DNA of 42,918 nt from positions 1 through 42,918 of the IMG/VR virus record IMGVR_UViG_3300033145_001651; one strand, given 5' to 3'. The notes beneath the pieces are model-generated. The model was not told the DNA's origin. It did not search any database and worked only from the letters and a program-made list of their open reading frames with translations. The translations under genes and the position numbers were made by a program. The stretch comes from a virus. Positions 6,170 to 42,384 of this stretch are shown piece by piece. Every line of letters starts with the position of its first letter. Position 1 is the first letter of the stretch.

Positions 6170-6293
6170 GTGGATTTGCCCATATTGCGGTCGCGATCTT
6201 ACAAAAGTGCCTGCAGAGCCCACTGGAGCGCGCAGGTCGATAAAGAAAGAGGGGAACATTGATGAAACCAATCAGTATGGAAAACAGGATTAG
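6108..6293 (+). CDS. Small zinc-ribbon protein
   Basis: 61 residues from ATG 6108, with AAAAGGAG upstream. Two C-x2-C knuckles (CPACG and CPYCG) separated by 14 residues form a classical zinc ribbon, with a short basic tail. It overlaps the preceding gene by 62 bases and the next by about 30, which is dense even for this phage, but the ribbon and ribosome site support a real gene. Possible nucleic-acid or protein adaptor. Confidence 0.6.
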   Translation: MVRKTCPACGKDSYSVGEGYRWICPYCGRDLTKVPAEPTGARRSIKKEGNIDETNQYGKQD

Positions 6294-13081: not shown

Positions 13082-14665
13082 ATGGCCGAAAGCCAGGAAC
13101 AAGCCTTGCAAGCAACTATTTACAAGGCTCAGGTGCTTGGCGGCAAAGAGATAGTCACCAGCAACAAACTAGAGGATGACCCCTTTGCTGGGCTATATGG
13201 AAAAGGGGGAGTGATTGAGCCGCCTTATGACCTGCGGGTGCTCACCTTGCTCCCTGAGTATTCCAACATCCTGGGCCAGTGCATAGATGCCATGGAGACC
13301 AATATTGATGGGTTTGGCTTTACGCTGGAGCCGGCGGAGGGAATTACACCTGGCCAGGACGGGAAATATCCGCCTGAGGTAGAAGCCGAGCGCCGCCGGG
13401 TGAGAAACTTTTTCCGGTACTGTAACCCGGATGAGAGCTTCACTAAAATCAGGCGCAAGACCCGGCGGGACCTGGAGACAACAGGCAACGCTTACTGGGA
13501 GATACTGCGGAACGGCAAGGGCGAAATTGCCGGGATAGAGCACCTGGAAAGCTATACCATGCGCCTTACCCCTCTGGATCATGAACCGACTGACATTGTC
13601 TTGCGGGTAAAAAAGGACAACAATACTTATGAGGAAATTCCCCACCGCAAAAGGTTCCGGCGGTTCGTCCAGATTAGAGACGGCAAGACGGTTTATTTTA
13701 AGGAGTTCGGCGATCCCCGGCTAATAGATGCCAAAACCGGCAAAGTGCTGACCGAAGAAGAAGCAAAAAGACCGGACGTTGTACTTGCAACAGAGGTTAT
13801 TCACTTCAAGATTTACTCCCCACGGTCGCCCTATGGCATTCCGCGCTGGATAGGAACCATTCTGGCAGTAAGGGGCAGCCGGCAGGCCGAGGAAGTCAAT
13901 TACGAGTATTTCGACAATAAAACCGTACCCCCACTGGCCGTTCTCGTATCCGGCAGGCTGGCCAAGGAAAGCGTTAGAACCATCGAGAATTATATCAAAG
14001 ATAACATCAAAGGCCGAAAGGGGTTCCATAAAATCCTCGTTATTGAGGCTGAGACTACCCCCAACCCCTTGGCGCCGGCTGGTCAGAAAGCAGGTATTGA
14101 GATAAAATCTTTGACCGAAGCCCAGCAGAAAGACGCCCTATTTGTTGAGTATGACGAGAAAAACCAGGAGAAAGTACGCTCGGCTTTCCGCCTACCGCCT
14201 ATTTATGTCGGGCGAACGAAGGACTTCAACCGTTCCACCGCCGAGGAAAGCAAGCGTGTTGCCGAGGAGCAGGTTTTTGGGCCGGAGCGGGACGACTTCG
14301 ACTTTACCATTAACCGGTTGCTCTTCCCGGCTATGGACGTGAAGTACTGGGAGTTCAAGAGCCTGGCGCCTACGACGGACAATGCCAAGGATATGACCGA
14401 AATGCTCAATGTCTTTGTCAAGGCTGGAATGACCACCAAAGAAGCGCGGCGCATCATGGAGGAAATTCTCAACAAGGAACTACCCGATCCAAAGGGCGCC
14501 GAATGGCTGGAAGAACCCTTGGAGGTTTACCTGGCCAAGCTGCGTGCCGGAATAGCTTCCACGGTTTCACCCGAGGAGGAAGCCCAGGCGGTGAAGAAAT
14601 TTGCCAGCTTCCTAATTAACGTGCGAAAGAGGCTGGAGGACTATGAATTGGGCCTTGCTCAGTAA
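13082..14665 (+). CDS. Portal protein, PBSX (XkdE)-like
   Basis: 527 residues from ATG 13082, which has AGGTGA upstream; an in-frame TTG at 13061 is unlikely. LLPEYSNILGQCIDAMETNI, then RRDLETTGNAYWEILRN, HFKIYSPRSPYGIPRW and the helical FRLPPIYVGRTKDFNRSTAE are typical of PBSX-type portals. It forms the dodecameric ring at the capsid vertex through which DNA passes. The next gene begins inside its last codons. Confidence 0.9.
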   Translation: MAESQEQALQATIYKAQVLGGKEIVTSNKLEDDPFAGLYGKGGVIEPPYDLRVLTLLPEYSNILGQCIDAMETNIDGFGFTLEPAEGITPGQDGKYPPEVEAERRRVRNFFRYCNPDESFTKIRRKTRRDLETTGNAYWEILRNGKGEIAGIEHLESYTMRLTPLDHEPTDIVLRVKKDNNTYEEIPHRKRFRRFVQIRDGKTVYFKEFGDPRLIDAKTGKVLTEEEAKRPDVVLATEVIHFKIYSPRSPYGIPRWIGTILAVRGSRQAEEVNYEYFDNKTVPPLAVLVSGRLAKESVRTIENYIKDNIKGRKGFHKILVIEAETTPNPLAPAGQKAGIEIKSLTEAQQKDALFVEYDEKNQEKVRSAFRLPPIYVGRTKDFNRSTAEESKRVAEEQVFGPERDDFDFTINRLLFPAMDVKYWEFKSLAPTTDNAKDMTEMLNVFVKAGMTTKEARRIMEEILNKELPDPKGAEWLEEPLEVYLAKLRAGIASTVSPEEEAQAVKKFASFLINVRKRLEDYELGLAQ

Positions 14666-17600
14666 AGAAGAACGGCGGGAAGTCGCCAGAGCCATAGACT
14701 ATATCCTGGATTTTCTCCTTTTCGTGCCTGTTCAAAAGGAAGCTGGCCCGGAGCGGTATCTCTTCGGAGCAGGAGCGAAAATGGCAGCTACAGAGGAGAA
14801 CATCGGCAAGGTCGAACAAAAACTGGCCGAGGTATTGCTTGAAGGCTGGAATGCCCAGGCGCAAAAAGCCATCAACAAAGGAGCTGCCCTCCTACAGTCT
14901 TTCGAGGGCGATATTGACGAGAAGGAAATCAAGCTTCTACTTAGCACTATCGCCCGAGAAATGGGGCCCGGCCTCCAGGCCATGACCCAAGAACAAGTAA
15001 CCAACCTGGTAGGCACAGCTTACATCCTGGGCCGGAAGTTGGTGGGACACCAGGTAGGCATAGAGCCGAAGCTGGAGCTGGTAGACGAGCAGGCGCGTCA
15101 GTGGCTGGCAGACCACACAGTGTTTTGGATCGGGGATTACTACGACAGCCATCTGGGGGAAAACATTGCCGGCACTGTACGACAATTGGCCTTAGAGCAA
15201 GGCCTGGGTCGGGAGGAGGTGGGCCGACGGTTAAAAGCCGCGCTTGGCGACCGGTTTACCAAGAGTGATGTTTACTGGCGCGGTTTGGCGGCTACCACCG
15301 TGGACCGGGCCCGGAACTTCGGCGGGGTGCAGAGCATGGTGGAAGCCCAGGTCTTGGAATATGAGATACTGGCCGTCATGGACGAGAGAACTTCCCCTAT
15401 TTGCCGGTTTATGAACGGCAAGGTGTTTAAGGTGGAGCACGCCGTGGCACTGAGAGACGCCGTATTGAACGCCAAGACGCCAGAGGACATCAAGGCAATT
15501 CACCCATGGCGGCAGGTTAAGGAGGTCCAAGCCTGGAATACCGAAAAGCTCGCGGCAGGAGGAATGGCCCTACCTCCTTATCATTACCATTGCCGGACAA
15601 CGTACATTGTGTCGTCATTCAGTGACATCACGATAAGCCAGGAACCGCTGGACATTAAGTTTGAACAGCCTAAGCCCAAAAGCGACCTGCCCTCCATGGA
15701 TAACCTCGAATATGTCGGTAGTGGGGCCTACCTTGGCGGTGCCGGTAAGAAATTTATTTACCAGGGGCCGGACGGCCAGAAATACATTTTCAAACCGGCG
15801 CAATCCAAACAGGGGCAGTTGGAGCCCTTTAGGGGATACGTGCAGGAGGCGACTTCCGAGATTGCCAAACGCCTCTATGAACCAGGGGAGTTCATAGAAG
15901 TCAAGGTAACCATAGATAACCAGGGGCGCTTTGGCACCTTACAGAAGCTGTTTACCGATGTTGAAGGAAACCTGAAACAGATTAACTGGAAGAGCCTGGC
16001 CCCGGAGGACTGGAAACAAATTCAGCGGGAGCACGTCCTGGATTGGGCCATCGGGAATTTCGACAGTCACGGGGGAAACTTTATCCGGCTTAAGGACGGC
16101 AGGATATTGAGTGTTGACAAGGAACAGGCATTTCGTTACATTGCGGACCCAAAATCATGGAAAATGAGCCTCGACTACCATCCCAACGCCGTCTATGGGG
16201 AGCAAGAACCCATTTACAATACAATCTACCGGGCCTTTGCCAATAAGGAGGTAGACCTGGACCTGCAAACCATCCTGCCAGCCCTGCAACGATTGGAGGC
16301 CATTCCCGATGAGGAGTACCGGGCCATCCTGCGGCCCTACGCCGAAGCGCTACACGGGAAGGGAGCCAAGGCGGAGGCCTTCCTGGACCAGGCGGTCAAG
16401 AGGAAACAGGAGACCAGAGAACAGTTCCGACAATTCTTTACCGACCTGCTCAAGGCCAGGGACCCGAAATTCAAAGGTGTTTTCAAATTCGCGGATGAAA
16501 TGACTGGGGCTGAGATGGTCAAAGCTCCCCTGGCGGCCAGGGTTATGACCAAGGAGGAATTACAAAAGCTCAATGTTAAAGCCCTCAAGGAAATGGCCAA
16601 GGCCCAAAAAATAAAGTACTTCCAGCAGATGACCAAAAAGGAGCTGGTGGAGGCCTTGGCGAACCCCGATAAGGCCCACGCGATCAGCATAATTGCTAAA
16701 GAGCGCACCAGGGCCAGGCTGCGGGCGGCAGTTAAGGAGCCTCCGGTCCCGAAGCTGGAAGCGCCTTTGGGAGCGGACATCCTGGAGGACTTCAACCAGG
16801 TACCCAGGACGCCATTTGGTATAGCAGTCCGCAAAGACGGGAAACGGATCGAGGGACAACAGATCACCATCCGCCGGATTGAGGAGGACGGCCAGGCCGG
16901 GTTTCAGGTGACCTTGAAGGTACCGCAGGCCTATCACGGCGATGTGGAAAAGGCACTCAAGAAAATGAGGGCAGGCCGCGGGAGCTTCACGTTCCAGGCC
17001 GGACGGCCCGACCGGGCTAAAGGCGTCTATCAAATGACGCGCCGCGAGCATACAAGGGTGGGGCAGGCCTGGTACTTGAGCGACCAGGACTTGGCGGTCT
17101 ATTTTGCCGGCACTACCAGAGAACGAGCCTTAATGGGCCAGTTGGAAATCAGGATTTACGAAACGGACGGAGTGCGAGCGGCAAAACGGGCGCAGGAAGT
17201 CCTGAAAAAGCTGAACCTGGAGGCTGCCATCGCAGACCCTACTCCGGAGGAAGAGCACTTGCTGCGGCTCTCTAGATTAGCCTGGCAGCATGCCCCCAGG
17301 GAAGAATACCGGATCAGCCTGGAGACTCGGACCGTCGAGCAGATGGAGCGCCTGCTGCGGGAAAAGGGTATCGACCCTGCCCGAGCAAACAAACTGGTAG
17401 AGAAAGAGGTCTGGCCCGGGTACAAGACTTTCGTGGAAGAAGGCATTAGCAAGGAATACCAGAAACTGGGTGCGGAATACCTGTTTGCAGGAGTCTCGGA
17501 GGACCCCCAGGTGGTGGTCGATATCCTCTCTCCCGATAGCCCAGGCCTCATGTCTACCTTGCAGCGGTACCTGAACGGCATGCTGACTAACCGGGGAGCC

Positions 17601-18035
17601 AGCCAGTCGGAGGATATCGTGTCTGGCGGAGCAGATAGTGCCTTTGTGCGCTTGGTGCCGAGGAACGCCCGGGGAAAGTACCGGTTCCGTGACTCTTTTA
17701 AGGGGAACGGGTACCGGCTCATTATAGATGTGAGCGAAATGGATAGAACGGACTGGTACGCCTACGGCCACGACAATTACGGCGGCGTGGGCGAGGATCG
17801 GGGGTTTCAGCGCAGGCTTAGCGCCGAAGAATTCGTCACCCGGCTAAACAGTTCCTACCGTCCCAGCAATGAGGTTATGTTTCGGCGGGGGATACGCAAG
17901 GAAAACATCATTGGGGTTACCTGCGACACCGAACGACAGCGGCAGGCTCTGATTAAAGCGCTCCGCCAGGCCGGGATCAAAGAGGTTAACGGGAAAAAGT
18001 TAGAGAAATTTATTAGAGTGCAGGAGATGATTTAA
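14643..18035 (+). CDS. MuF-type head protein fused to kinase-like and further C-terminal domains
   Basis: 1130 residues, about three times the normal MuF length. (1) Residues 1-325 are a phage Mu F/SPP1 gp7-like minor head domain with MDERTSPIC254 and HYHC317RTTY. (2) Residues about 350-610 resemble HipA/phosphatidylinositol-kinase-like phosphotransferases: GSGAYLGGAGKKFIYQG, KYIFKPA (candidate ATP-binding Lys), GNFD474SHGGN479 (catalytic loop) and SVD492KEQAF (metal-binding Asp). (3) Residues about 643-672, LNVKALKEMAKAQKIKYF, then TKKELVEAL, fit a Rho-N/SAP-like DNA-binding helix pair. (4) Residues 700-1130 are unassigned, with GGADSAF (995-1001) and RTDWYAYGHDNYGG (about 1036). The layout is that of phage polyvalent proteins delivered with DNA. 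GGAGGA is only two bases before ATG 14643; ATG 14781 is an alternative start. Confidence 0.8.
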   Translation: MNWALLSKEERREVARAIDYILDFLLFVPVQKEAGPERYLFGAGAKMAATEENIGKVEQKLAEVLLEGWNAQAQKAINKGAALLQSFEGDIDEKEIKLLLSTIAREMGPGLQAMTQEQVTNLVGTAYILGRKLVGHQVGIEPKLELVDEQARQWLADHTVFWIGDYYDSHLGENIAGTVRQLALEQGLGREEVGRRLKAALGDRFTKSDVYWRGLAATTVDRARNFGGVQSMVEAQVLEYEILAVMDERTSPICRFMNGKVFKVEHAVALRDAVLNAKTPEDIKAIHPWRQVKEVQAWNTEKLAAGGMALPPYHYHCRTTYIVSSFSDITISQEPLDIKFEQPKPKSDLPSMDNLEYVGSGAYLGGAGKKFIYQGPDGQKYIFKPAQSKQGQLEPFRGYVQEATSEIAKRLYEPGEFIEVKVTIDNQGRFGTLQKLFTDVEGNLKQINWKSLAPEDWKQIQREHVLDWAIGNFDSHGGNFIRLKDGRILSVDKEQAFRYIADPKSWKMSLDYHPNAVYGEQEPIYNTIYRAFANKEVDLDLQTILPALQRLEAIPDEEYRAILRPYAEALHGKGAKAEAFLDQAVKRKQETREQFRQFFTDLLKARDPKFKGVFKFADEMTGAEMVKAPLAARVMTKEELQKLNVKALKEMAKAQKIKYFQQMTKKELVEALANPDKAHAISIIAKERTRARLRAAVKEPPVPKLEAPLGADILEDFNQVPRTPFGIAVRKDGKRIEGQQITIRRIEEDGQAGFQVTLKVPQAYHGDVEKALKKMRAGRGSFTFQAGRPDRAKGVYQMTRREHTRVGQAWYLSDQDLAVYFAGTTRERALMGQLEIRIYETDGVRAAKRAQEVLKKLNLEAAIADPTPEEEHLLRLSRLAWQHAPREEYRISLETRTVEQMERLLREKGIDPARANKLVEKEVWPGYKTFVEEGISKEYQKLGAEYLFAGVSEDPQVVVDILSPDSPGLMSTLQRYLNGMLTNRGASQSEDIVSGGADSAFVRLVPRNARGKYRFRDSFKGNGYRLIIDVSEMDRTDWYAYGHDNYGGVGEDRGFQRRLSAEEFVTRLNSSYRPSNEVMFRRGIRKENIIGVTCDTERQRQALIKALRQAGIKEVNGKKLEKFIRVQEMI

Positions 18036-24116: not shown

Positions 24117-24320
24117 ATGCCCACTATTAAAAACAAGCTTAACTCGCCTCTTTCTATAGATCTGGGAGGCGGCAAGAGTATTCACCTGCTGCCATTAGAA
24201 AAGCGAGACATAAGCAAGAAAGATGTGAAGGCTAACCAAATGCAGGCGGCCCTTCGTGCGGGATACATTCTCGTCCTGCCTGACCAGGCACCTGCAAAGA
24301 AGAAAGGGAGTGACAAATAA
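24117..24320 (+). CDS. Small tail-region protein, 67 aa
   Basis: ATG 24117 has GGGAGGAGG upstream. LNSPLSIDLGGGKSIHLLPL, then KRDISKKDV and a basic tail. Short proteins of this kind often precede the sheath gene in myophages; function unknown. One-base overlap with the sheath start. Confidence 0.6.
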   Translation: MPTIKNKLNSPLSIDLGGGKSIHLLPLEKRDISKKDVKANQMQAALRAGYILVLPDQAPAKKKGSDK

Positions 24321-25855
24321 TGCCCGAATTTCTCTCCCCTGGTCATCTTGTCACTGAAGCGCCGCCGCAGGTGGTCACCATCCCGGGAGCACCTACCAGC
24401 ACGGCGGCACTAATCGGCATCGCGGAAAAAGGACCTATAGGGAAGGCCGAACTGGTCACAAGCTGGGCCGACTTCGTAAAAAAGTTCGGCTCTTTTATTT
24501 CCAACGGATGGCTGGCCTACGCTGCCTACGGGCTGTTCCTCAACAAGCGCGGGGCCAGGGTTTATGTAGTTAGGACAGCTCACTATACCGATCCTGGCGA
24601 TCCAACGACGTTAACTGCAGTCAAGGCTACGGTCACTCTTCAGGATAGGGCAGCTACGCCAGTGAACACGCTTCAAGTGGACGCCTTGAACGAGGGTGCT
24701 TGGGGCAATAGGCTTAAAGTCAGGATTTCGGATGCAACCAAGGACAGTGCCAACAAGTTCAAATTGGAGGTTCTGGAAACGGTCAACGGCCAGGACGTTG
24801 TGCGAGAGATATTTGACGAGCTTTCCATGGACGATACCAGCACCGATTTTGTAGAAAGCAGGATTAATGGCAAGAGCCAATACATCACGGTAACCGACCT
24901 GGACAGTTCCACGGCAGCCCCGAATGATCGTCCGGCAGCCGGAACGTTTCCGCTGGCCAACGGGGATGATGGCTTGACCGGCCTGGCCGATACCGACTTT
25001 ATCGGTTCGGCGGCCGGCAGAACGGGGCTCTATGCATTAGACGTGATCGACGAGAGTCTGCTCATCGCGGTTCCTGGCGTGGCTACTTCCGCCGTTCAGA
25101 ACGGAGTGCTGGATTACTGCGCTGGCAGAGGAGACTGCTTTGCTGTGCTGGACCCACCGTTTGGCAATACGCCGGATGAGGTAAAGACCTACGTGGAGAC
25201 CACGGCCGGGTTTAACAGTAGCTATGGGGCCTTCTACTACCCAAATGTGAAGATCATGGACCCGGCCACCGGCAAGGAAAAGGTAGTGCCACCCAGCGGC
25301 TTCATTATCGGAGCCTATGCACGGACGGATGGAATAAAAGGCGTTTGGAAAGTGGCGGCTGGTATTGAGGATGGGTTGTTAGCCGGCGTAATTGGGTTGG
25401 AAACCGATCTGGTCAACGATAAGGGAATTAGGGATATTCTATATCCGGCACGGATTAATCCTATTCCCTTCCTGCGCGGATATGGGATTAGGGCCTATGG
25501 TGCCCGGACCCTGGATGGAAGCGGCAGTTTTCCCTACATTAACGAACGCCGGACTTTCATCTTTTGCGAGAAATCCATTGAGGAAGGCACCCAATTTGCC
25601 GAATTCGAGAACAACGAGCCCGGATTGTGGAAGCGGCTCACCAGGTCGATTAACGCCTTCCTGCTTGGAGTCTGGAAACAGGGTGGCTTGAAGGGAGCAA
25701 GTCCTCAGGAGGCCTTCATGGTCAAAATCGATGAGGAACTTAACACCCAGGAAACCATTGATCAAGGACTGCTGCGCGGCCGTATTGGTCTGGCAACCCA
25801 CCGGCCGGCAGAATTCATTTGGTTTGAATTCGAACGCAAGCTGCAGGCTGAATAA
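24320..25855 (+). CDS. Tail sheath protein
   Basis: 511 residues. The opening PGHLVTEAPPQVVTIPGAPT, then STAALIGIAEKGPIGKAELV, a long middle region and the C-terminal pattern SFPYINERRTFIFCEKSIEE and WFEFERKL define the contractile sheath family. It surrounds the tube and contracts on infection, which makes this phage a myovirus. The C-terminal part is the conserved assembly domain. Confidence 0.93.
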   Translation: MPEFLSPGHLVTEAPPQVVTIPGAPTSTAALIGIAEKGPIGKAELVTSWADFVKKFGSFISNGWLAYAAYGLFLNKRGARVYVVRTAHYTDPGDPTTLTAVKATVTLQDRAATPVNTLQVDALNEGAWGNRLKVRISDATKDSANKFKLEVLETVNGQDVVREIFDELSMDDTSTDFVESRINGKSQYITVTDLDSSTAAPNDRPAAGTFPLANGDDGLTGLADTDFIGSAAGRTGLYALDVIDESLLIAVPGVATSAVQNGVLDYCAGRGDCFAVLDPPFGNTPDEVKTYVETTAGFNSSYGAFYYPNVKIMDPATGKEKVVPPSGFIIGAYARTDGIKGVWKVAAGIEDGLLAGVIGLETDLVNDKGIRDILYPARINPIPFLRGYGIRAYGARTLDGSGSFPYINERRTFIFCEKSIEEGTQFAEFENNEPGLWKRLTRSINAFLLGVWKQGGLKGASPQEAFMVKIDEELNTQETIDQGLLRGRIGLATHRPAEFIWFEFERKLQAE

Positions 25856-32884: not shown

Positions 32885-34318
32885 GTGGCATTACCGCCTA
32901 TTGATTATTCAGCAAGAGATTTTGCTTCACTTTACGAGGCACTCAAGACTTACATTCGTGCGCGTTACCCGAATTGGACGGACTTTGCCATTGCCAATGT
33001 AGGCAACGTCTTGCTGGAGGCCGTTGCCTACGTGGGCGACCAACTGCATTACTACATGGACAGACAGGCAGGGGAAGCTTTTCTTTCGACAGTTACCCAA
33101 CGGAGCAACATGATTAAAATTCTGAAGCGGCTTAGCTATAAGATGGCAGGGCCCCAGGCTGCCACCGTGGACTTGCGGTTTACCCTTGCAGCACCGGCCG
33201 CGGGAGACGTAGTCATCCCGGCCAAAACCCAGGTCCTGACGACCGGCCCAGAACCCCTGGTGTTCGAGACTCAGGCGGAACTGGTCATTCCGGCGGGAGC
33301 TACCGAAGGAACTGTTTCGGCCAAACACGCCGAGACCCGAACAGAAGAATTCGTGGGGGACGGCTCGCCAAACCAAAGACTGCGCCTTTCTTTTGGGCCG
33401 TACCTCGACGGCTCAGCTCGAGTGGAGGTAAATGGAGAACTGTGGGACGAGGCCGAGGTGTTCATCGCAACAGACCCGGCGTCAAAGATATTCCTAGTAG
33501 AAGTAGACGAAAATGACCAAGCTACTATTCTGTTTGGAGATGGGACAAACGGTGCAATTCCAACCGGAAATATTAAGGTGACTTACGAAACAGGGGGCGG
33601 TGCCAAGGGTAACGTACCTGCGGGGCTGATAACTCTAATTCCGGCTACGTTTACGGACAGCCTGGGGAATATGGTCTCGATTTCTGTTACTAACCCTGTG
33701 GCAGCAACAGGCGGAGCGGATAGAGAAGACATGGAAGTTGCGAGGTACCGAGCACCTCAAGAGGCCAGATCTAGGGAAGTTAGCACCACTGTTGACGATA
33801 TTCAGGCTAACGCTGAAGGCGTAGCAGGTGTGGCCAGAGCGTTATGCCGGCTCACCTGGCAGGACAGCAGTATTCCTGATAATACCGCCCGAGTTTATAT
33901 CGTTCCGGAAGGTGGCGGCTTGCCCAGCCAGGCCCTCAAGGATGCGGTCACGCAAGAGTTGACCCAAAACAAGCCTATGCCGCCAACCATGGGTCTGGAG
34001 GTAGTAGACCCGCTTTACAAAGTGGTGGATATCGCTGGCACGATTTACGCATTATCCACAGCCGATAAGGAGGCAATAGAGGCTCAGGTCCAAACCGTCC
34101 TCGCCGACCTGTTCAGTTACACCAAGAGGGACGAAAATAACACCTATATAGTAGACTTCGGTAAGCCGCTTTATCTAAGCACCATCATTGCAGCGTTACG
34201 GAATATCCCCGGTGTCTATAACGTAGCTCTTACGGCTCCAGCAGGGGATGTGGTGCCGGCGGCTGTGGAAATAGTTGCGCTTGGCGATACCTCTGGCCTG
34301 GTGGTGGTGCAATCATGA
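32885..34318 (+). CDS. Baseplate protein J (gp47-like)
   Basis: 477 residues from GTG 32885 (AAGGGGGTGAG). SARDFASLYEALKTYI, then LLEAVAYVGDQLHYYMDRQA, ATILFGDGTNGAIPTGNIKV and REDMEVARYRAPQEARSREV match the baseplate J/gp47 family. It forms wedge dimers linking hub and fibres. It overlaps the next gene by four bases. Confidence 0.92.
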   Translation: MALPPIDYSARDFASLYEALKTYIRARYPNWTDFAIANVGNVLLEAVAYVGDQLHYYMDRQAGEAFLSTVTQRSNMIKILKRLSYKMAGPQAATVDLRFTLAAPAAGDVVIPAKTQVLTTGPEPLVFETQAELVIPAGATEGTVSAKHAETRTEEFVGDGSPNQRLRLSFGPYLDGSARVEVNGELWDEAEVFIATDPASKIFLVEVDENDQATILFGDGTNGAIPTGNIKVTYETGGGAKGNVPAGLITLIPATFTDSLGNMVSISVTNPVAATGGADREDMEVARYRAPQEARSREVSTTVDDIQANAEGVAGVARALCRLTWQDSSIPDNTARVYIVPEGGGLPSQALKDAVTQELTQNKPMPPTMGLEVVDPLYKVVDIAGTIYALSTADKEAIEAQVQTVLADLFSYTKRDENNTYIVDFGKPLYLSTIIAALRNIPGVYNVALTAPAGDVVPAAVEIVALGDTSGLVVVQS

Positions 34319-35649
34319 TAAGAGTGCCGGCAATATACCTGGAAGACAAGGAAACGCGAGCCCTGCTCGATGTGATGGAGCAGGGTTTTGCTTTAGTCCT
34401 CGAGGAACTGGCAAACTGGACCAACATTTTAGACCCAGATCATTGTCCGGCTTCGGTTTTACCCCACATGCTTTTTGAGGAGGGCTGGACGGAGCAAATA
34501 CCCCTGACTGAAGTCCAACAGCGAAGGCTGGCCAAAGAGCTGCCCAGGCTGTGGAAATGGCGGGGAACCTACAAAGCTATTATCCCCGCTATAAAGATTT
34601 TCACTGTAGAGGCCAACAAGGACTACCAGGTGGATATCATCACCCACCGGCCTAGCCGGACGTTCTGGATACGGGTACCTTGGCGGATGTTGAGCGCCCT
34701 GGACTTCCCCTCTATGTTTCGCGTGGTGTGGAAATTCACAGCGGCAAATGAATATTTCGGGGTGGTCGGTATCCCAGACCGGATGCTCCTGCTGAACCAG
34801 GCCGGAGCCCTGGTGATGGTGACCCAGGACCTTTCCTGGCAGGAGACCAAGACGCGGAAGGTGTTCACCGGCCCGCGGTTCAATGCTGCGGGCGCCGTGG
34901 AGACCGTAACGGAAGATACCTCTTGGAGCGAAATTGTATCTTTTAAGACGTTCACCGGGCCGCGGCTAGGTGGCATGAAATTCAATCATGCCGGGGCAGT
35001 TCAGACCGTCACTACCGACGAGGGCTGGGACGAGACCGTTACCCATTACAAATTCACCGGCCCTCGGCTCAACGGCCCCACCCTGAAACTCAACGGTACT
35101 GGTAAGGCCAATGAGGGGCCTAAAGCAAGCGAGCAGGCGGTGACACATCATGAGGTTCTAGTGACCAAAAAAACCTTCCCAGCCGGGCAACTGTTCAATG
35201 CCGGGCCGACGGTGTCTCAACAGCAGATTATTACCCACCCAGGTAGCCGGACCTATAAGCGGTTTGTGGCACCGCTATCGGCGCTCAATACCCGCGGTAC
35301 CGTAATCGAGGATGTGGTGGACCGTGGCTGGGATGAAACCATCACTGAGCACCGGTTCACGGGGCCGCGGTTCAACAGCTCAACTTTGACTGTAACTGGC
35401 CGGACCAGGCTCAATGCCGGGCCAAAGACTAGCGAGCAGGTGGTGGTCCATCATCCGGTGCTGGAAACCACCGTCAAGAACGACGGCGGCACCCTTCTCA
35501 ATCGAGGACCCATCGAGACCAGGCAGGAGATCATAAATCACCCGGATGTGCGGACATACAAGAAGTTCAATCCCGAGGCTGGCATGGTCCTCAACGGCAA
35601 GCCGGTCCTGGGATACATGTGGAAAAAAGAACTGAAGGAGGCGGTCTAA
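34315..35649 (+). CDS. Tail protein I-like baseplate protein with repeat domain
   Basis: 444 residues. Residues 1-140 (LEELANWTNILDPDHCPASV, then LPHMLFEEGW and LPRLWKWRGTYKAI) are the P2 gpI-type domain. Residues 165-430 hold repeats of about 30-40 residues built on F-T-G-P-R (at about 184, 213, 247 and 348) with T-V-T-x-D-x-x-W-x-E-T/I-V/I-T between; related copies end in H-P-x-x-x-T-Y-K. The repeats are probably beta-strand modules extending from the baseplate. Confidence 0.8.
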   Translation: MIRVPAIYLEDKETRALLDVMEQGFALVLEELANWTNILDPDHCPASVLPHMLFEEGWTEQIPLTEVQQRRLAKELPRLWKWRGTYKAIIPAIKIFTVEANKDYQVDIITHRPSRTFWIRVPWRMLSALDFPSMFRVVWKFTAANEYFGVVGIPDRMLLLNQAGALVMVTQDLSWQETKTRKVFTGPRFNAAGAVETVTEDTSWSEIVSFKTFTGPRLGGMKFNHAGAVQTVTTDEGWDETVTHYKFTGPRLNGPTLKLNGTGKANEGPKASEQAVTHHEVLVTKKTFPAGQLFNAGPTVSQQQIITHPGSRTYKRFVAPLSALNTRGTVIEDVVDRGWDETITEHRFTGPRFNSSTLTVTGRTRLNAGPKTSEQVVVHHPVLETTVKNDGGTLLNRGPIETRQEIINHPDVRTYKKFNPEAGMVLNGKPVLGYMWKKELKEAV

Positions 35650-35650
35650 T

Positions 35651-37327
35651 GTGGCAGAGAAGCTGGTAAAGTACCAGGGCGATACTACCCAGCGGGAACT
35701 CTGGTCGGACGGACCGGTCGTGAGCACAGGGGTATCCCGGCTCCTTGACCCTACCGACCGGAGCTTTACGGTGGTCATGTTCCAGCAGGGCAAGCCGCCC
35801 CTGGACTCGGAGGTTAACCTCCTGCAGCAGATTCAAAACCATCTTCGAGCGCAAATTATGAGGCAGTTAATGCCATCGGGCATAGTTTCCCTGGGAGCGT
35901 TAACTACCGGGGTAACATCGCCCCTGAACTCCCTGCGCCTAGCCGAGACCTACGCCCTGGTCAACGGCTGGCTGGTCAAAATAGCCGGGGCCAACCGGAG
36001 CGATATAGCAAACGATATCATTTTTCCGGAGGCTCCCATTAGCGGTTACCGGGACGACTTGGCTTTTATCGAGTTCTGGTTCGAGGAAGTAGCGCCGACC
36101 GGCTCCCCGGAGGCCGACAGCGAAAACGTTTATAAATATGGCGGCGTCCAAAGCGGCACCCAGACTAACGACCTTCAGGATACCACTATCGGGGACGAGA
36201 CCACCAGGCGCATTCAACTGCGCTGGCGCATCCGGACCGTGGCGGATGTGGATTTCGTGAATTACCCCGACGGCGTAAACCACGGGGACAAAGTCAAGGC
36301 CTGGGGCGGGGCCGGGGCAGATACCACTTATACCTTCTCGCCTTCCAGCACAGACCCGAAGCTCTATGTAGCCGGTGACGGTTCCGCAGCGGCCTGCGAT
36401 ACCCTTAAATGTGCCACCGGTTACGTCTATGCCTTGAGTTTATTTAAAGTTCATAGACGGAACCAGACGGCCTATGATGCTGCTACGAACCCGGACGGTG
36501 CCCCGGCCTATGGACAGGACAACCCGCGGCCAGACCAGTTATTCCATGACGTCATTGCGGCCAGGGACGTAACGCCGACCTATTTCCTGACCGACCTGAA
36601 GGAGTATCTATCCCCTGGTGTGGAGGCCTTGGGAGCTACCTTGATGGAGGCTATGCGGGCCATTCGTGCCACCGACCTCGAGCTGGACAAGTGGAAGAAG
36701 CAGCGGCTGCAGCAGGGCACGGTCATGATCTATAACAAACTGGTGATAGAGGGGGCCATCATCAGCGGGGTACCAAATTCGCGAAACATCCAGATCACCA
36801 AAACCGGAACGTATACAGCCGGTAATGTCTCGAAGGTTTATGTCGATGGCAAAGATGTGGTGATCCCAGACGAGCAAAACGTGGCAGTGGTGCCTACGAA
36901 CCCGGACACCGTAGACAAGACGTATTATGCCTGGCTGGATTGGGATGAGGAGGCGGGCAAATATAAAGTCTACCTTGGCGAAACAGTGCCGGAGGGCAAA
37001 CTAAAACTCTATCAGATAGTAGTACCGGCAGGAGACCAGGGTACCGACTTGAGTGCCTGCACCTTTACAGATCAGCGAAGGATTGAAGCGGGCCATCCCA
37101 ACTACTACAACACCAAGCCCTTCGCTTTAGTCAGTCCGACTGGCTATCCGATGCTGGACACCCCGGGCTATGATGTGCTGCTCACGGTGGAGAACGCCAG
37201 CGACCTGGATAAGGTTGGCCGGCTGGAGGTCTATGACAAGGCGAGCAACGGGTTCAAGATCAGGCCTACCGGCTCTGCCGATAATATTCAGGTTCGTTGG
37301 ACCATTGTCAATCCGGATATTGCATAG
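35651..37327 (+). CDS. Large tail fibre/baseplate-linked protein
   Basis: 558 residues from GTG 35651 (AAGGAGGCGGTCTAAT). The N-terminal RSFTVVMFQQGKPPLDSEVN, then LLQQIQNHLRA resembles phage proteins in which a G-K-P-x-x-D-S-E-x-N motif begins a tail-associated shaft (DUF4815-like). Several beta-rich sections follow, ending GSADNIQVRWTIVNPD. It lies between gpI-like and the DGR target, so it likely forms the fibre shaft or its adaptor. Confidence 0.75.
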   Translation: MAEKLVKYQGDTTQRELWSDGPVVSTGVSRLLDPTDRSFTVVMFQQGKPPLDSEVNLLQQIQNHLRAQIMRQLMPSGIVSLGALTTGVTSPLNSLRLAETYALVNGWLVKIAGANRSDIANDIIFPEAPISGYRDDLAFIEFWFEEVAPTGSPEADSENVYKYGGVQSGTQTNDLQDTTIGDETTRRIQLRWRIRTVADVDFVNYPDGVNHGDKVKAWGGAGADTTYTFSPSSTDPKLYVAGDGSAAACDTLKCATGYVYALSLFKVHRRNQTAYDAATNPDGAPAYGQDNPRPDQLFHDVIAARDVTPTYFLTDLKEYLSPGVEALGATLMEAMRAIRATDLELDKWKKQRLQQGTVMIYNKLVIEGAIISGVPNSRNIQITKTGTYTAGNVSKVYVDGKDVVIPDEQNVAVVPTNPDTVDKTYYAWLDWDEEAGKYKVYLGETVPEGKLKLYQIVVPAGDQGTDLSACTFTDQRRIEAGHPNYYNTKPFALVSPTGYPMLDTPGYDVLLTVENASDLDKVGRLEVYDKASNGFKIRPTGSADNIQVRWTIVNPDIA

Positions 37328-37341
37328 GGAGGTGAAGGGGA

Positions 37342-37692
37342 TTGATTGTCCGAGAAGTAAATGAGGGACCGAAAATTGATTACGAACTGAACGGGACAGT
37401 CCTGACCCTGGGTGGCGGGGCCGTTTCTATTGATCTTGCCGAACGCCAGACCGATACCGAAACGGTAATTGACATCTGCCACGACGACGGTCACCTAGTG
37501 GAAGGCCTGGGTCGGTGGTACGTGGCCACCATTATAATTCCTTCCAAACGCTACCGTCTGGTAGACACCGGCCAGGTTGACGAGAATGGGGCGCCGGTAA
37601 TGGCGCCTGAAGCGCTACCGATTGATTTGGACTCTGTGATTTTAAACCTGTGGGCCCTACCCCAAATAAGTGAAGGAGGTAGTGAAGTATGA
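37342..37692 (+). CDS. Small tail-fibre-region protein, 116 aa
   Basis: TTG 37342 has AGGGAGGTGAAGGGG upstream. Beta-rich, acidic sequence (IDYELNGTVLTLGGGAVSID, then TVIDICHDDGHLVEGLG, RWYVATIIIPSKRY). No family recognised. It overlaps the DGR target start by four bases, so it is probably made with the target and may be its adaptor or chaperone. Confidence 0.6.
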   Translation: MIVREVNEGPKIDYELNGTVLTLGGGAVSIDLAERQTDTETVIDICHDDGHLVEGLGRWYVATIIIPSKRYRLVDTGQVDENGAPVMAPEALPIDLDSVILNLWALPQISEGGSEV

Positions 37693-38822
37693 TCTTTAGC
37701 ATTAAAGACACTTATCGGCAAGCTGTAGAGGCCGCTTCTGGCGGGAAGAATACAGTGCTTTATGATGATCTGGGTTATCCCTCGATTATGGTAGTAGTTC
37801 CGCGTTTTAAATTAAGCGACATCGACCCAACATGGCCTTCCGACCCCCATCCGGCTTTTATTGTTAACGACCGGATAATCGATGAAATCTTCATCTCCAA
37901 GTTTCAGAACGTAGTGGTCGGCGGCCGTGCTCTCTCCCTTCCCATGCAGGACCCGAAGGTCTATGTGAACTTTGACCAGGCCAGGGGCTACTGCATTGCC
38001 AAGGGCAAAGGCTGGCACATAATGACGAACGCGGAGTGGGCGGCCATTGCCCTCTGGTGCTGGAAGAACGGATTCATGCCACGGGGCAATAACTATGCTG
38101 GTGCCGACCATGGAGCACTATATGAGAACGGCCGCAAAACCTATGACTGGATTCTCGATTACAACTGGAACAATCGGGCTTATAAGATTGACGGCGACAA
38201 GTATTACCACGTCGGCCGGGTAGCTACAGGAAGCGGGCCCGCCTCCTGGTACCATGACAACACGCCATTTGGAATCGCCGACCTTAACGGCAACGTTTGG
38301 GAATGGATCGATGGACTTAAACTGGTAGACGGCAAAATCTACGTACACGGGGCTGGTGGAGAACCCCAGAACAACTTCGAAACCCAGAACAACCATCGTG
38401 ATGTCACTGGGTGGGTAGATACCGGGGTATACTTCGATAACACCACCGCAGGCGACGACACCCAGTCTTCTCACGATGTGGGTGGGGACCCCATCCTGAG
38501 CCCGGATCTGACTAACCCGATGTACACCACCGACCCGACATCGGACGCCTACTATGGCTACAGTTCCATGACTTTTGAGAACCTAACGGCTGAAACTGAC
38601 TTTACGCCACCCGACATGCTAAAGCACCTTGCCATCCAGCCCCCGGGCGCTGATCTTGGTGGCGACGGCCTCTATGTGCGTAACTACGGCGAGCGCGTCC
38701 CGATCCGGGGTGGGGACTGGGGCTACGGCTCCAGCGCCGGGGTGTTTGCTCTGTACTTGGACTACGCCCGCTCGTCTTCGGGCATCTACATCGGCTTCCG
38801 CGCGGCTTTTATTCCCGTGTAA
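37689..38822 (+). CDS. DGR target: C-type-lectin/FGE-fold variable receptor-binding protein
   Basis: 377 residues with AAGGAGG upstream. Residues 80-220 (FDQARGYCIAKGKGWHIMTN, then AEWAAIALWCWKNGFMP and FGIADLNGNVWEWIDG) are the formylglycine-generating-enzyme/C-type-lectin fold used by DGR variable proteins. The variable repeat covers residues 335-373: IPIRGGDWGYGSSAGV, FALYLDYARSSSG, IYIGFRAAF. The nine codons that are AAC or AAT in the template read D, G, Y, Y, D, Y, S, I and Y here. The protein lies after the fibre genes and is most likely the fibre tip that binds the cell surface. Confidence 0.9.
   Translation: MIFSIKDTYRQAVEAASGGKNTVLYDDLGYPSIMVVVPRFKLSDIDPTWPSDPHPAFIVNDRIIDEIFISKFQNVVVGGRALSLPMQDPKVYVNFDQARGYCIAKGKGWHIMTNAEWAAIALWCWKNGFMPRGNNYAGADHGALYENGRKTYDWILDYNWNNRAYKIDGDKYYHVGRVATGSGPASWYHDNTPFGIADLNGNVWEWIDGLKLVDGKIYVHGAGGEPQNNFETQNNHRDVTGWVDTGVYFDNTTAGDDTQSSHDVGGDPILSPDLTNPMYTTDPTSDAYYGYSSMTFENLTAETDFTPPDMLKHLAIQPPGADLGGDGLYVRNYGERVPIRGGDWGYGSSAGVFALYLDYARSSSGIYIGFRAAFIPV
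38692..38808 (+). repeat. DGR variable repeat (VR)
   Basis: 117 bp aligned without gaps to 39256-39372. The 11 differences are at 38715, 38721, 38722, 38724, 38754, 38760, 38763, 38775, 38776, 38785 and 38787; at every one the template has A. Here they are G (4), T (6) or C (1). All lie in nine codons that are AAC or AAT in the template. The last 19 bp after the final change are identical and presumably serve as the priming homology. Confidence 0.96.
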
Positions 38823-38849
38823 TCTGGGTTCTGAAACCTGAAATCTGTT

Positions 38850-38869
38850 GGGCGGGCGATAGCCCGCCC
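38850..38869 (+). other. GC-rich hairpin/cruciform after VR
   Basis: GGGCGGGC (38850-38857) pairs perfectly with GCCCGCCC (38862-38869) around GATA. It lies 28 bases after the target stop. Phage DGRs are known to carry an inverted repeat of about 8 bp with a GRNA tetraloop just downstream of VR that promotes retrohoming; GATA fits GRNA. No T-run follows, so it is not a normal terminator. Confidence 0.85.
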
Positions 38870-38898
38870 TCCAGTCCTTTAACACGGGGGTAAAAGTC

Positions 38899-39234
38899 TT
38901 GGCAGAAAAATTGAAGGTTCTTCAAAAGACCTACGACATGATCCAGTATGGATATATTTGCCTGCGGCAGTACCCCAAGAGTGAGAAGCATACCTTAGCG
39001 GCAGAGACCAAGCGGGCCATGTTCAAGCTGCTTGAGACCATCATTATGGCAAACAAAAGATATTACAAAAAGAATGCCATCCAGGAGGCTGACGTCCAGT
39101 TAGAAATTCTCCGCTACTATATACGGCTTGCAAAGGACCTGGGGTTTTTGCCCATCAGAAAGTATGAAAACTGGGCCAAGATGACTACAGAGATAGGAAA
39201 AATGATCGGCGGCTGGCTCAAATCAGCACGTTAA
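38899..39234 (+). CDS. avd: DGR accessory variability determinant (Avd)-like protein
   Basis: 111 residues from TTG 38899, eight bases after GGGGG. Basic, all-helical: LQKTYDMIQYGYICLRQYPK, then ETKRAMFKLLETIIMANKRY, then EADVQLEILRYYIRLAKDL and WAKMTTEIGKMIGGWLK. This is the four-helix bundle typical of bAvd/23S-IVP-like proteins, which form a pentameric barrel that binds the reverse transcriptase and template RNA. Located between target and TR as in many phage DGRs. Confidence 0.88.
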   Translation: MAEKLKVLQKTYDMIQYGYICLRQYPKSEKHTLAAETKRAMFKLLETIIMANKRYYKKNAIQEADVQLEILRYYIRLAKDLGFLPIRKYENWAKMTTEIGKMIGGWLKSAR

Positions 39235-39255
39235 TTATTTTGGGGAGAAAGCCAA

Positions 39256-39372
39256 AGCGCGTCCCGATCCGGGGTGGGAACTGGAACAACGGCTCCAGCG
39301 CCGGGGTGTTTGCTCTGAACTTGAACAACGCCCGCTCGAATTCGGGCAACAACATCGGCTTCCGCGCGGCTT
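39256..39372 (+). repeat. DGR template repeat (TR)
   Basis: The invariant partner of VR, 564 bases downstream in the same direction and outside any gene. It has 22 adenines; 18 are in nine AAC/AAT codons when read in the target frame, and 11 of these 18 differ in VR. AAY codons can become 15 amino acids by change of the adenines without making stop codons. The RNA from this region is the template for error-prone cDNA. Confidence 0.96.
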
Positions 39373-39560
39373 CACCCTGTAGCCAGAAGTGGTAAGCTCA
39401 AGGGCTTGCCTCCAGCGCACAGGGGTAAAGGGGCTTTCTTCCCTGCCGCGCTCCCGCCAAAGTTCGGGACCGGCAAAAAACTGAATTGCCGGGAAGGTAG
39501 TTAGTAGCCCCGCAGGGGCGAAGGGTGCCACGCCCGGCCCTCTTTTTAAGAGGTGATGAC
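39373..39560 (+). ncRNA. DGR RNA spacer after TR
   Basis: This 188-base interval between TR and the RT gene has no credible gene. It can form CCGGCAA (39470-39476) with TTGCCGG (39486-39492), and GCCCC (39507-39511) with GGGGC (39515-39519). In the Bordetella phage system the RNA spacer of similar length and position is bound by RT-Avd and primes cDNA synthesis, so the same role is inferred here. Confidence 0.65.
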
Positions 39561-40673
39561 ATGAAAAAACTGAAAAACCTTTACCCCAGGATTTATGATT
39601 TCGAGAACCTTCTGGAGGCCTATAGAGAGGCCCGTAAGTGCAAGAGGTTCCGAGATGAAGTCCTGGCGTTCACCCGTAACCTCGAAGAAAACTTGATCAA
39701 CATTCAGAACGAGCTAATCTGGAAGACCTACAAGGTGGGCAGGTATAGGGAGTTTTTCGTCTACGACCCAAAGAAACGGCTGATTATGGCCTTGCCATTT
39801 AAGGACCGGGTGGTTCAGTGGGCCATCTACCGGGTGCTCAATCCACTTTTGGACCGGCGCTATATCTCGGACAGTTACGCCTGCAGGGTAGGCTATGGGA
39901 CTCACCGGGCGGCGGACCGGCTTCAATACTGGCTCCGGTACCTGGCCCGAAGATATCCCAGGACCTACGTCCTTAAACTTGATATCAGTAAGTATTTCTA
40001 CCGGGTGGATCACGATGTCCTTATGGGAATCTTGCGACGGATTATAGCCGACAAGGACCTGCTCTGGCTATTGGAGATCATCATCCGGTCGGAGGATACC
40101 AAATTTGGTATTCCCTTGGGTGACCACGGCTTTGAGTGCGAAAGGGTTGAGGGAGTTGGGATGCCTATCGGCAACCTCACATCGCAGATGTTTGCCAACC
40201 TCTACCTGAACGAGCTGGACCAGTACGCCAAGCACGTCCTGAAAGTGCGGTATTATATCCGCTACATGGATGACGTGATCATTCTGCATCCGGACAAGAA
40301 ATATCTTTGGCGGCTTAAGGAGGAGATTGGGGCCTTTCTAGAGGACCATTTGCACCTGGTGCTCAATGACAAGACCACCGTCCGGACGGCGGACCAGGGA
40401 GTTGATTTTTGCGGGTATCGGATATGGCCCACTCACAGGAAACTCCGCAAGAGGACGGCCCTCAAAATGAAACGACGTCTCAAGTACCTTCAACGGGCTT
40501 ATGCCCGGGGTGAAGTTGATTTGGAAGAGGTAAACGCCAGCGTGCAAAGCTACCTGGGCCTCTTAAAGCATTGCAACAGCTACAAACTACGGAAGAAGTT
40601 ATTTGACGAGCTTGTTTTTGTGCGAGGAGGGGATGCCGGTGAGAAAAACGATGACAACCTGGCCGGGAGGTGA
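39561..40673 (+). CDS. DGR reverse transcriptase
   Basis: 370 residues from ATG 39561 after AAGAGGTGATGAC; the in-frame GTG at 39525 is less likely. Motif A is KLD141ISKYFYRVD; then GMPIGNLTSQ (206-209 LTSQ) and the catalytic Y235-M-D-D238 in IRYMDDVIIL. I-G-N-L-T-S-Q is characteristic of DGR reverse transcriptases, which lack the maturase and endonuclease domains of group II intron enzymes. The C-terminus (CGYRIWPTHRKLRKRTALKM) is the thumb. It copies TR RNA with random bases opposite adenine. Confidence 0.95.
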   Translation: MKKLKNLYPRIYDFENLLEAYREARKCKRFRDEVLAFTRNLEENLINIQNELIWKTYKVGRYREFFVYDPKKRLIMALPFKDRVVQWAIYRVLNPLLDRRYISDSYACRVGYGTHRAADRLQYWLRYLARRYPRTYVLKLDISKYFYRVDHDVLMGILRRIIADKDLLWLLEIIIRSEDTKFGIPLGDHGFECERVEGVGMPIGNLTSQMFANLYLNELDQYAKHVLKVRYYIRYMDDVIILHPDKKYLWRLKEEIGAFLEDHLHLVLNDKTTVRTADQGVDFCGYRIWPTHRKLRKRTALKMKRRLKYLQRAYARGEVDLEEVNASVQSYLGLLKHCNSYKLRKKLFDELVFVRGGDAGEKNDDNLAGR

Positions 40674-40678
40674 CGCCT

Positions 40679-40900
40679 ATGCCAGGGGCTGAGATCGCCC
40701 AGTATGGCATTGCATTTTTTACGGTAGCAGGCTTGCTTTTCTTAGTAGCTCAGTGGTTCAGACAAAAAAGCGACCAGGAGTTAGCCGAGGTGGTCCAAAA
40801 TAACACCAAGGCCCTAGAACAGCTAACTACATTAATCCAGGTGGCGTTGGCGCGGCAGGAGGCTAAAATCGACGAACTGCTTGAACGAGCCAGGCGGTGA
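40679..40900 (+). CDS. Holin-like membrane protein (BhlA/UviB-like)
   Basis: 73 residues from ATG 40679 (GGGAGGTGACGCCT), beginning just after the RT stop. One N-terminal membrane segment (GIAFFTVAGLLFLVAQWF) followed by a charged coiled helix (SDQELAEVVQNNTKALEQL, then ARQEAKIDELLERARR). This layout fits small BhlA/UviB-type holins. It starts the lysis module. Confidence 0.65.
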   Translation: MPGAEIAQYGIAFFTVAGLLFLVAQWFRQKSDQELAEVVQNNTKALEQLTTLIQVALARQEAKIDELLERARR

Positions 40901-40905
40901 GGACG

Positions 40906-41208
40906 ATGAGGAACTTCTTCAGCCGGCCATATGAATTCTCTTTCAAGGACCTATTGGCGACCGGTTTTTGTAGTGTATTCCTCTACTTCTGTTACAAGGC
41001 CTTGGGTAGCCAGGATGCGTTGGGGTTAGTGAAAGCATTGGTACCGCTCATCGGGATAATCCTGGGCGGCTATTTTGTACAGGAAAGCGCGAGTATCTGG
41101 TTCAACCGTACCCAGGGTCCGCAAGCGCCACCGACTTCCTATCAGTCTTACCCTTATTCCTACAGCGAGTCGCCACCACAGGTGAAAAATAATAAACCCA
41201 CGATTTAG
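40906..41208 (+). CDS. Small two-helix membrane protein
   Basis: 100 residues from ATG 40906, with GGTGAGG just upstream. Two membrane segments (LLATGFCSVFLYFCYKAL and ALVPLIGIILGGYFV) and a Pro/Tyr/Ser-rich tail. Place between the holin-like and amidase genes suggests a lysis function such as holin or antiholin; no family recognised. Confidence 0.6.
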   Translation: MRNFFSRPYEFSFKDLLATGFCSVFLYFCYKALGSQDALGLVKALVPLIGIILGGYFVQESASIWFNRTQGPQAPPTSYQSYPYSYSESPPQVKNNKPTI

Positions 41209-41220
41209 GAGGTGTTGTGA

Positions 41221-42030
41221 GTGCCAAAGAAGGTATGTATTGACCCTGGCCACGGCGGCAGCGACTCGGGGGCGCTCACCGCAGACGGGCGGAAGGAAAA
41301 AGACTCGAACCTTCGGGTTGCGCTGATGGTCGAGCAAGAACTGCATGGTACTGGCATTGAGGTCTTGCTCACCAGGCGAGACGACCGATATCTAGACCTC
41401 TCGGAGCGGAGCCGGATGGCCAACCGCTGGGGAGCTGACATTTTTGTGAGCCTTCATGCCGATGCCGCCGGCGGCCCGAGCGCCAAGGGGCATCATGCTA
41501 TCCACAGTATCCACTCCAAGCCGGGGCAAGGCGGCAATAAGCTAGCCAGGCTTTTGGTAGACCAGGTAACGCTGACCACGGGCCGGCAACCCTTTCCCCG
41601 GGGAGATCGTGGTGTATGGACCAGGGAAAGCAAAAAATACCCGGGCAAGGACTATTATGCTGTAATTCGAGACACGAACATGTCGGCGGTCATCATTGAG
41701 CGGGGGTTCCTCACAAACCCGGAAGAGGCGGCCTTGCTGTTTGACGATGGCTTTCTGCGGAAACAGGCCCAGGGGGTTGCCCGGGCCATCATGATGTATT
41801 TCGGCTTAAAACTCGAGGAGGTGGCGGCAACCATGTTCAAGGATATCGTGGGTCACTGGGCGCAGGGCAACATTGAGCACCTGGCCGAGATTGGCGTTAT
41901 CAGTGGGAAAGGCGACGGGACCTTTGACCCCAATTCCCCGATTACGAGGGCGGAGGCGGCAGTAATCGTGGATCGGGCCATCGGTTACGTCCTGGCCGAG
42001 GTTCAAAAAATGATTAAGGGGGCAGCGTAA
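41221..42030 (+). CDS. Endolysin: N-acetylmuramoyl-L-alanine amidase with SLH domain
   Basis: 269 residues from GTG 41221 (TAGGAGGTGTTGTGA). Residues 1-190 are Amidase_3 with zinc ligands H11 (DPGHGG), E26 and H79 (VSLHAD) and catalytic E160 (VIIERGF). Residues 205-255 (MFKDIVGHWAQGNIEHLAEI, then GVISGKGDGTFDPNSPITRA) form one S-layer homology (SLH) repeat, which binds secondary cell-wall polymer. There is no signal peptide, so export depends on the holin. It cuts the bond between MurNAc and L-Ala of peptidoglycan. Confidence 0.93.
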   Translation: MPKKVCIDPGHGGSDSGALTADGRKEKDSNLRVALMVEQELHGTGIEVLLTRRDDRYLDLSERSRMANRWGADIFVSLHADAAGGPSAKGHHAIHSIHSKPGQGGNKLARLLVDQVTLTTGRQPFPRGDRGVWTRESKKYPGKDYYAVIRDTNMSAVIIERGFLTNPEEAALLFDDGFLRKQAQGVARAIMMYFGLKLEEVAATMFKDIVGHWAQGNIEHLAEIGVISGKGDGTFDPNSPITRAEAAVIVDRAIGYVLAEVQKMIKGAA

Positions 42031-42384
42031 ATGGACGATTTGCTTTTACGGGTGCTATATGACGTTCTGGTGCTCCTAGCTACCGTAGCCGCTGGCTATG
42101 CTGTAGCCTGGTTACGGAAACGGCTGGGCGTAGAGGGTATGAAAAAGATTGAGGCCGAACTGGCCACAAAACAAGAACTGGCAGGCTTAGCGGTACGGTT
42201 TGTTGAACAGGTCTACAAGGATATCCACGGGGAAGCAAAATATCAGAAGGCTGCCGAGTGGCTGGCGGCCAGGGCCAGCGAGCTGGGCTTAAAGGTCACC
42301 CCGGAAGAGGTAAAAGGGCTTATCGAGGCGGCTCTTAGAACTTTCAAAGATGAGTTTGGGGAAGAATGGGCCAAGCAGGTATAA
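42031..42384 (+). CDS. LL-H family phage holin
   Basis: 117 residues directly after the endolysin stop. One N-terminal membrane segment (VLYDVLVLLATVAAGYAVAW), then helices KKIEAELATKQELAGLAVRF and VEQVYKDIHGEAKYQKAAEW match the phage holin LL-H family. Together with the amidase it makes the main lysis pair. Followed by a strong terminator. Confidence 0.85.
   Translation: MDDLLLRVLYDVLVLLATVAAGYAVAWLRKRLGVEGMKKIEAELATKQELAGLAVRFVEQVYKDIHGEAKYQKAAEWLAARASELGLKVTPEEVKGLIEAALRTFKDEFGEEWAKQV

Follow-up and report, generated by a model that had tools for sequence, protein, structure and literature searches.

The diversity-generating retroelements (DGRs) catalogued and analysed by Roux et al. in 2021 number more than 30,000, and include phage clades that target tail proteins (PMC8144416). 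A Thermus aquaticus prophage DGR was described in 2019 along with the crystal structure of its target type, TaqVP (PDB 5vf4), in which nine variable residues are reported to be exposed and to form a potential binding site (PMC6328139). In the DGR of Bordetella phage BPP-1, which has the target Mtd, the accessory protein Avd and the reverse transcriptase (RT) bRT, the spacer between the template repeat (TR) and the RT gene both brings in RT-Avd and provides the priming for cDNA synthesis (PMC12875486). Phage DGRs also bear stems of 7-10 bp with GRNA loops after the variable repeat (VR), for which a target-recognition role has been shown in BPP-1 (Guo et al. 2011; PMC3240598). The element studied here occupies positions 37689-40673 (+ strand) of the virus contig IMGVR_UViG_3300033145_001651, all 42,918 bases of which made up the window; the related loci with which it was compared are designated by L-numbers. 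It almost certainly belongs to the phage DGRs with Avd and a TaqVP-like target, is complete and apparently works as outlined below; it represents a known kind of element in one more phage, not a new kind of system.

Its likeness to the T. aquaticus DGR lies in the full-length homology of the target, the C-terminal VR, the nine variable residues and the gene order target-avd-TR-RT, while the target is about 39% identical and the host is another. With BPP-1 it shares Avd, the RT, a structured TR-RT spacer, a GRNA-loop hairpin after the VR and the adenine mutagenesis pattern; the target is TaqVP-like, whereas that of BPP-1 is Mtd. The DGR of Bacillus phage BalMu-1 (NC_030945), a phage named Mu-like, has the order target, avd, RT, then holin and endolysin, and an RT 62.7% identical to that of the window, although the targets are 42% identical. 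Closest of all is a prophage of Desulfovirgula thermocuniculi DSM 16036 (L083, the same as L004), with 95% amino acid identity in the RT and 82% DNA identity over 34756-41115, but with a VR that differs at 10 of the 20 shared TR adenine sites.

Parts of the element

The features by which a DGR can be recognised in sequence were all present: an RT with SQ in place of SP in the GxxxS motif and with YxDD, a TR/VR pair with the adenine pattern, a lectin-fold target, Avd, a hairpin and a spacer, in the order target gene, GC hairpin, avd, TR, structured spacer and RT gene (Table 1). The preliminary description had reported a complete DGR with apparently intact parts. Its positions for the element, the VR and the TR were borne out, the target, Avd and RT reading frames were all present, each of them unbroken, and the catalytic motifs, hairpin and spacer RNA were conserved.

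Table 1. Features of the DGR in the window, and VRs and template arrays of related loci (numbered within each locus)
Feature	Coordinates	Strand	Remarks
Target (variable protein) gene, FGE-type C-type-lectin fold, TaqVP homologue	37689..38822	+	377 aa; phmmer, AlphaFold2, Foldseek, Pfam, phrog_2889
VR, 3′ end of target gene	38692..38808	+	117-bp direct repeat with TR
GC-rich inverted repeat, putative target-recognition hairpin/cruciform	38850..38869	+	8-bp stem, GATA loop
avd, accessory variability determinant	38899..39234	+	111 aa, TTG start; NCBIfam, Pfam
TR, 22 adenines	39256..39372	+	repeat pair with VR
TR-RT spacer, structured RNA, Rfam RT-14	39371..39537	+	RF02921 match, covariation
Reverse transcriptase	39561..40673	+	370 aa; Pfam RVT_1, phrog_1423, PDB 8ub7, motifs
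TR-plus-spacer array, L116	4890-6007		genome G001:C3:52065-53068
TR-plus-spacer array, L177	1830-3002		
TR-plus-spacer array, L178	1-831		cut by locus end
TR-plus-spacer array, L179	2100-2998		
L183	VR 1538-1642; TRs 2302-2840		
L218	VR 1573-1677; TRs 2290-2840		
L249	VR 1530-1635; TRs 2290-2840		

The VR and TR were identical at 106 of 117 positions, and the 11 mismatches all fell on the 22 adenines of the TR (chance 8e-10; hypergeometric, 117 sites, 22 adenines), the non-adenine bases being 100% identical. The same pair was recovered by an unbiased repeat search, and no second target was found in the record, which may be incomplete; only the TR and the VR matched the repeat sequence. All nine AAY codons of the TR are changed in the VR (N343D, N345G, N346Y, N356Y, N358D, N359Y, N363S, N366I and N367Y), from which 15^9 = 3.8e10 combinations had been calculated in the preliminary description. 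The arithmetic held, but the figure is a lower bound and not the total, since three more codons (ATC339, AGC349 and ATC368) carry a TR adenine; these are unchanged in the window VR, though each of the two ATC sites is altered in at least one of the relatives L004, L006, L008 and L009.

The Avd product matched the NCBIfam model DivGenRetAVD (NF033474; 5e-36, above cut-off) and Pfam bAvd (2e-35), with a weak phmmer match to 4dwl, Bbp7. The RT matched Pfam RVT_1 and phrog_1423 (3e-152) and contains LKLDIS, IGNLTSQ and YMDD, so that the LTSQ and YMDD motifs noted earlier were confirmed. Its best PDB match was the 8ub7 entry series (reverse transcriptase, E 2.5e-50), which we take to be the BPP-1 DGR RT. 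As the start codon of the RT, ATG 39561, preceded by AGAGGTGAT, is more probable than GTG 39525, a position within the spacer RNA. The hairpin, GGGCGGGC-GATA-GCCCGCCC, has a GRNA-class loop and lies 41 nt 3′ of the VR, slightly beyond the published range of 4-34 nt for BPP-1-like phage DGRs. Stems of 7 bp or more, mostly with GRNA loops, follow the VR in 83 of 128 related loci, compared with 2.5% in shuffled sequences.

The spacer scored 63.5 bits against the Rfam family RT-14 (RF02921; gathering threshold 48.1), which was also matched by all eight relatives tested and by BalMu-1. In an alignment of 36 spacer sequences, 24 of the 28 base pairs showed compensatory change. The proportion of paired cells was 94.4%, compared with 74.6% for shuffles and 42-53% for slid controls; none of 500 shuffles was as good. 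Rfam lists this family merely as RT-14 RNA, yet it sits exactly between TR and RT in many loci (e.g. L164:5834-5977). From its position and conservation, RT-14 is probably the spacer RNA of this DGR group, a parallel to Phage_DGR (RF03022), the family matched by the BPP-1 spacer. The covariance model built here did not match the BPP-1 spacer at E ≤ 1, so the agreement between the two families is one of position and general layout, and not of demonstrated common descent. Literature searches for RT-14, and for Phage_DGR together with RT-14, returned nothing; the present results would tie this Rfam family to the DGR spacer in this family of elements.

The target is homologous to TaqVP over its full length (phmmer E 4e-75). 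Its AlphaFold2 model (mean pLDDT 96) had 5vf4 as its top Foldseek match (E 1.7e-42, TM 0.87), with TvpA, FGE-like enzymes and Mtd far behind, and the protein also matched Pfam FGE-sulfatase and phrog_2889. In the phmmer alignment, D343, G345 and Y346 of the window correspond to D348, G350 and N351 of TaqVP (numbering from PMC6328139). The product thus has a C-type-lectin fold, and at least nine of its residues are randomised; in the homologue of solved structure these residues are exposed.

By analogy with BPP-1, a transcript would span avd, the TR and the spacer, the last of which, once folded, would be the binding site for RT and Avd. The RT would copy the TR into cDNA, misincorporating opposite adenines. 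The cDNA would then replace the VR, guided by the identical 3′ end of the repeats (the initiation of mutagenic homing sequences, IMH/IMH*) and by the downstream GC hairpin, and the TR itself would remain unchanged throughout.

Turnover of the variable repeat among relatives

The scan covered 161 sequences, the window among them and the rest related loci, and 140 had an adenine-biased VR/TR pair. When 128 distinct loci were pooled, changes had occurred at 1598 of 3061 TR adenine sites, compared with 33 of 11380 other sites, a ratio somewhat inflated by a pair finder that favours adenine mismatches. More direct evidence came from loci with nearly the same RT. L073 and L077, whose RTs are identical over the 900 bases compared, differ in the VR at 14 of 23 TR adenine sites and at none of 95 others. 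With essentially identical RTs, the corresponding values were 14/23 and 0/92 for L041/L042, and 16/24 and 0/87 for L057/L059. In the window's own clade, L005 and L006 (RT 99.9% identical) differ at 12/16 and 0/72 sites. Other pairs with identical RTs also share the same VR; some are one genome present in two collections, and in the remainder a single phage may have been copied or sampled more than once. When the window was compared with L004, L006, L008 and L009, every non-adenine difference between TRs (9-12) was mirrored in both VRs, and the VRs never differed where the TRs agreed on a non-adenine base; the TR must therefore have been recopied into the VR since these lineages split. The recent, adenine-specific turnover of the VR that the preliminary description had expected was thus seen family-wide, and these comparisons give good support for recent activity in the family and, within it, in the window's own clade.

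There is next to no chance that the TR and VR are an ordinary duplication adjoining an RT of some other kind (from a group II intron, a retron or an antiviral system). Models of group II intron and antiviral RTs do give scores with this RT, but every one of them is far below its cut-off, and these identities, that of a retron included, were rejected. The mismatches lie at adenines of one copy only, Avd is present beside the RT, the closest solved RT is 8ub7, and the same layout was found in more than 100 loci. A decayed DGR, which would have kept all its parts but lost its activity in this phage, also appears unlikely. Four points weigh against an active, receptor-diversifying element, and three of them concern activity: no VR/TR pair was detectable in 21 of the 161 sequences (some cut at contig ends); the relative L003 has a 1-base deletion in its VR (5133-5248) with respect to the TR, which would frameshift the target, so relatives can carry damaged targets; and any activity of this contig is judged from its relatives, as something it would have inherited with its intact parts. 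In favour of activity, the reading frames of the element are intact, and its two repeats agree at every non-adenine base even though relatives differ from it at 9-12 such sites in both copies.

The fourth point concerns the target, whose most likely role, suggested by gene position and homology, is that of an adhesin at the tail tip or of a receptor-binding protein; both its virion location and its receptor role are read from sequence. A functional DGR might instead diversify a protein that binds no receptor, such as an FGE-fold enzyme or a decoy: the FGE-fold match allows an enzyme, and possible enzymatic activity has been raised for TaqVP (PMC6328139). This seems improbable, since the gene sits between baseplate/tail genes and lysis genes, homologues in phages ACA1/ACA2 are annotated 'antireceptor', and the variable residues reported for TaqVP are exposed at a potential binding site. 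If the target is indeed a receptor binder, the phage might change its receptor binding within a generation, as had been proposed.

Two further observations were made on the repeats of relatives. A 1-base VR deletion that would frameshift the target also occurs in L007 (1659-1775); this and the deletion of L003 could be sequencing or retrohoming errors. In L005/L006 and L051/L054, the TRs of near-identical DGRs (RT at least 99%) differ mostly at adenines (A versus G or T). Such losses of TR adenines may perhaps arise by VR-to-TR conversion, which would fix useful residues.

Tandem templates in related elements

A scan for arrays in 253 sequences, some representing the same contig twice, revealed a clear array in seven distinct loci only. 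In L116, L177, L178 and L179, three to four tandem TR-spacer units with a period of about 277-305 bp precede a single RT, and there is one target gene; four copies of the spacer were recognised in L116 by the spacer model. In L183, L218 and L249, four tandem TRs with a period of about 140-150 bp are followed by a single spacer, the first TR of L218 being degenerate. Repeats are also visible in L214, outside these seven loci. The templates of an array have scaffold codons in common and differ in their loop codons, including at non-adenine bases.

The VRs of L116, L177 and L249 each correspond to template 2 with adenine changes only (adenine/other: 7/0 over 114 columns, 9/0 over 100 and 7/0 over 100, respectively). 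No single template fits the VR of L183, for which at least 10 illegal changes would be required; as a mosaic, its 5′ half matches template 3 and its 3′ half template 4, with no illegal changes. Of the 21 informative sites, the first 11 point to one of these templates and the following 10 to the other, an order whose chance is 6e-6 for that template pair, a somewhat optimistic value given that the pair was picked as the best of the four templates. In L218, the 5′ part of the VR corresponds to template 4 and the 3′ part to template 3; two sites remain illegal, and the stretch in the middle could also derive from template 2. The templates of a mosaic meet within the invariant scaffold of the middle, in keeping with the report that short homology suffices for 5′ cDNA integration (PMC3240598). 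The mosaics likely arose by successive retrohoming from different templates, with the 5′ crossover in this block. Alternatively, the matching templates may have been lost or be sited elsewhere (no further one was found in the L183 and L218 records), phages may have recombined with each other, or the arrays and mosaics may reflect mis-assembly of repeats. None of the three templates of L179 accounts for its VR, the best of them leaving 10 illegal changes, and the mosaic rule therefore does not explain every case; the picture is incomplete.

On balance, these data tilt slightly towards the idea that the template is an exchangeable cassette in this DGR family, diversification operating on two levels: choice or recombination of templates, and adenine mutagenesis. 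Such an arrangement would roughly resemble the gene conversion and hypermutation of antibody genes, and the window, with its single TR, would be its simple form. If so, elements of this family could keep alternative scaffolds for the binding site in reserve, in addition to randomising a single one. A limited literature search found no papers describing tandem-template arrays; multiple TRs have been mentioned in metagenomes of individuals, not as tandem arrays in one DGR (PMC4891356).

Phage context and host

The contig encodes a terminase, portal, prohead protease, head protein, sheath, tube, tape measure and baseplate wedge. The contractile tail named in the preliminary description is thus borne out (sheath gene at 24320-25855), as are the lysis genes after the DGR: an amidase with an SLH domain (41221-42030) and a holin (42031-42384). 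The 'fibre genes' placed upstream are weakly supported; 35651-37327 and 37342-37692 match only uncharacterised phage families, and 34315-35649 weakly matches a tail family. The genome nearest to the window is that of D. thermocuniculi DSM 16036, and by this sequence similarity the host is probably a Desulfovirgula-like thermophilic member of the Bacillota. A literature search for Desulfovirgula together with DGR found nothing. The window thus contributes a DGR that is clean and complete, in a phage whose host is probably a thermophilic, anaerobic member of the Bacillota; the target of this DGR is close to a protein of known thermostability.

Outside the DGR, a DUF5131 family protein (1868-3067; 399 aa) exceeds the length of the family model by well over 100 aa, its residues 174-270 matching a separate small phage family. 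The 1130-aa minor head protein (14643-18035) has a long C-terminal extension, and its residues from about 614 to 677 match small phage families, including Arc-like repressors. The early region contains genes for an ADP-ribosylglycohydrolase (6259-7233) and a nucleoside 2-deoxyribosyltransferase-like protein (5404-6024), with a possible role in counter-defence or nucleotide metabolism.

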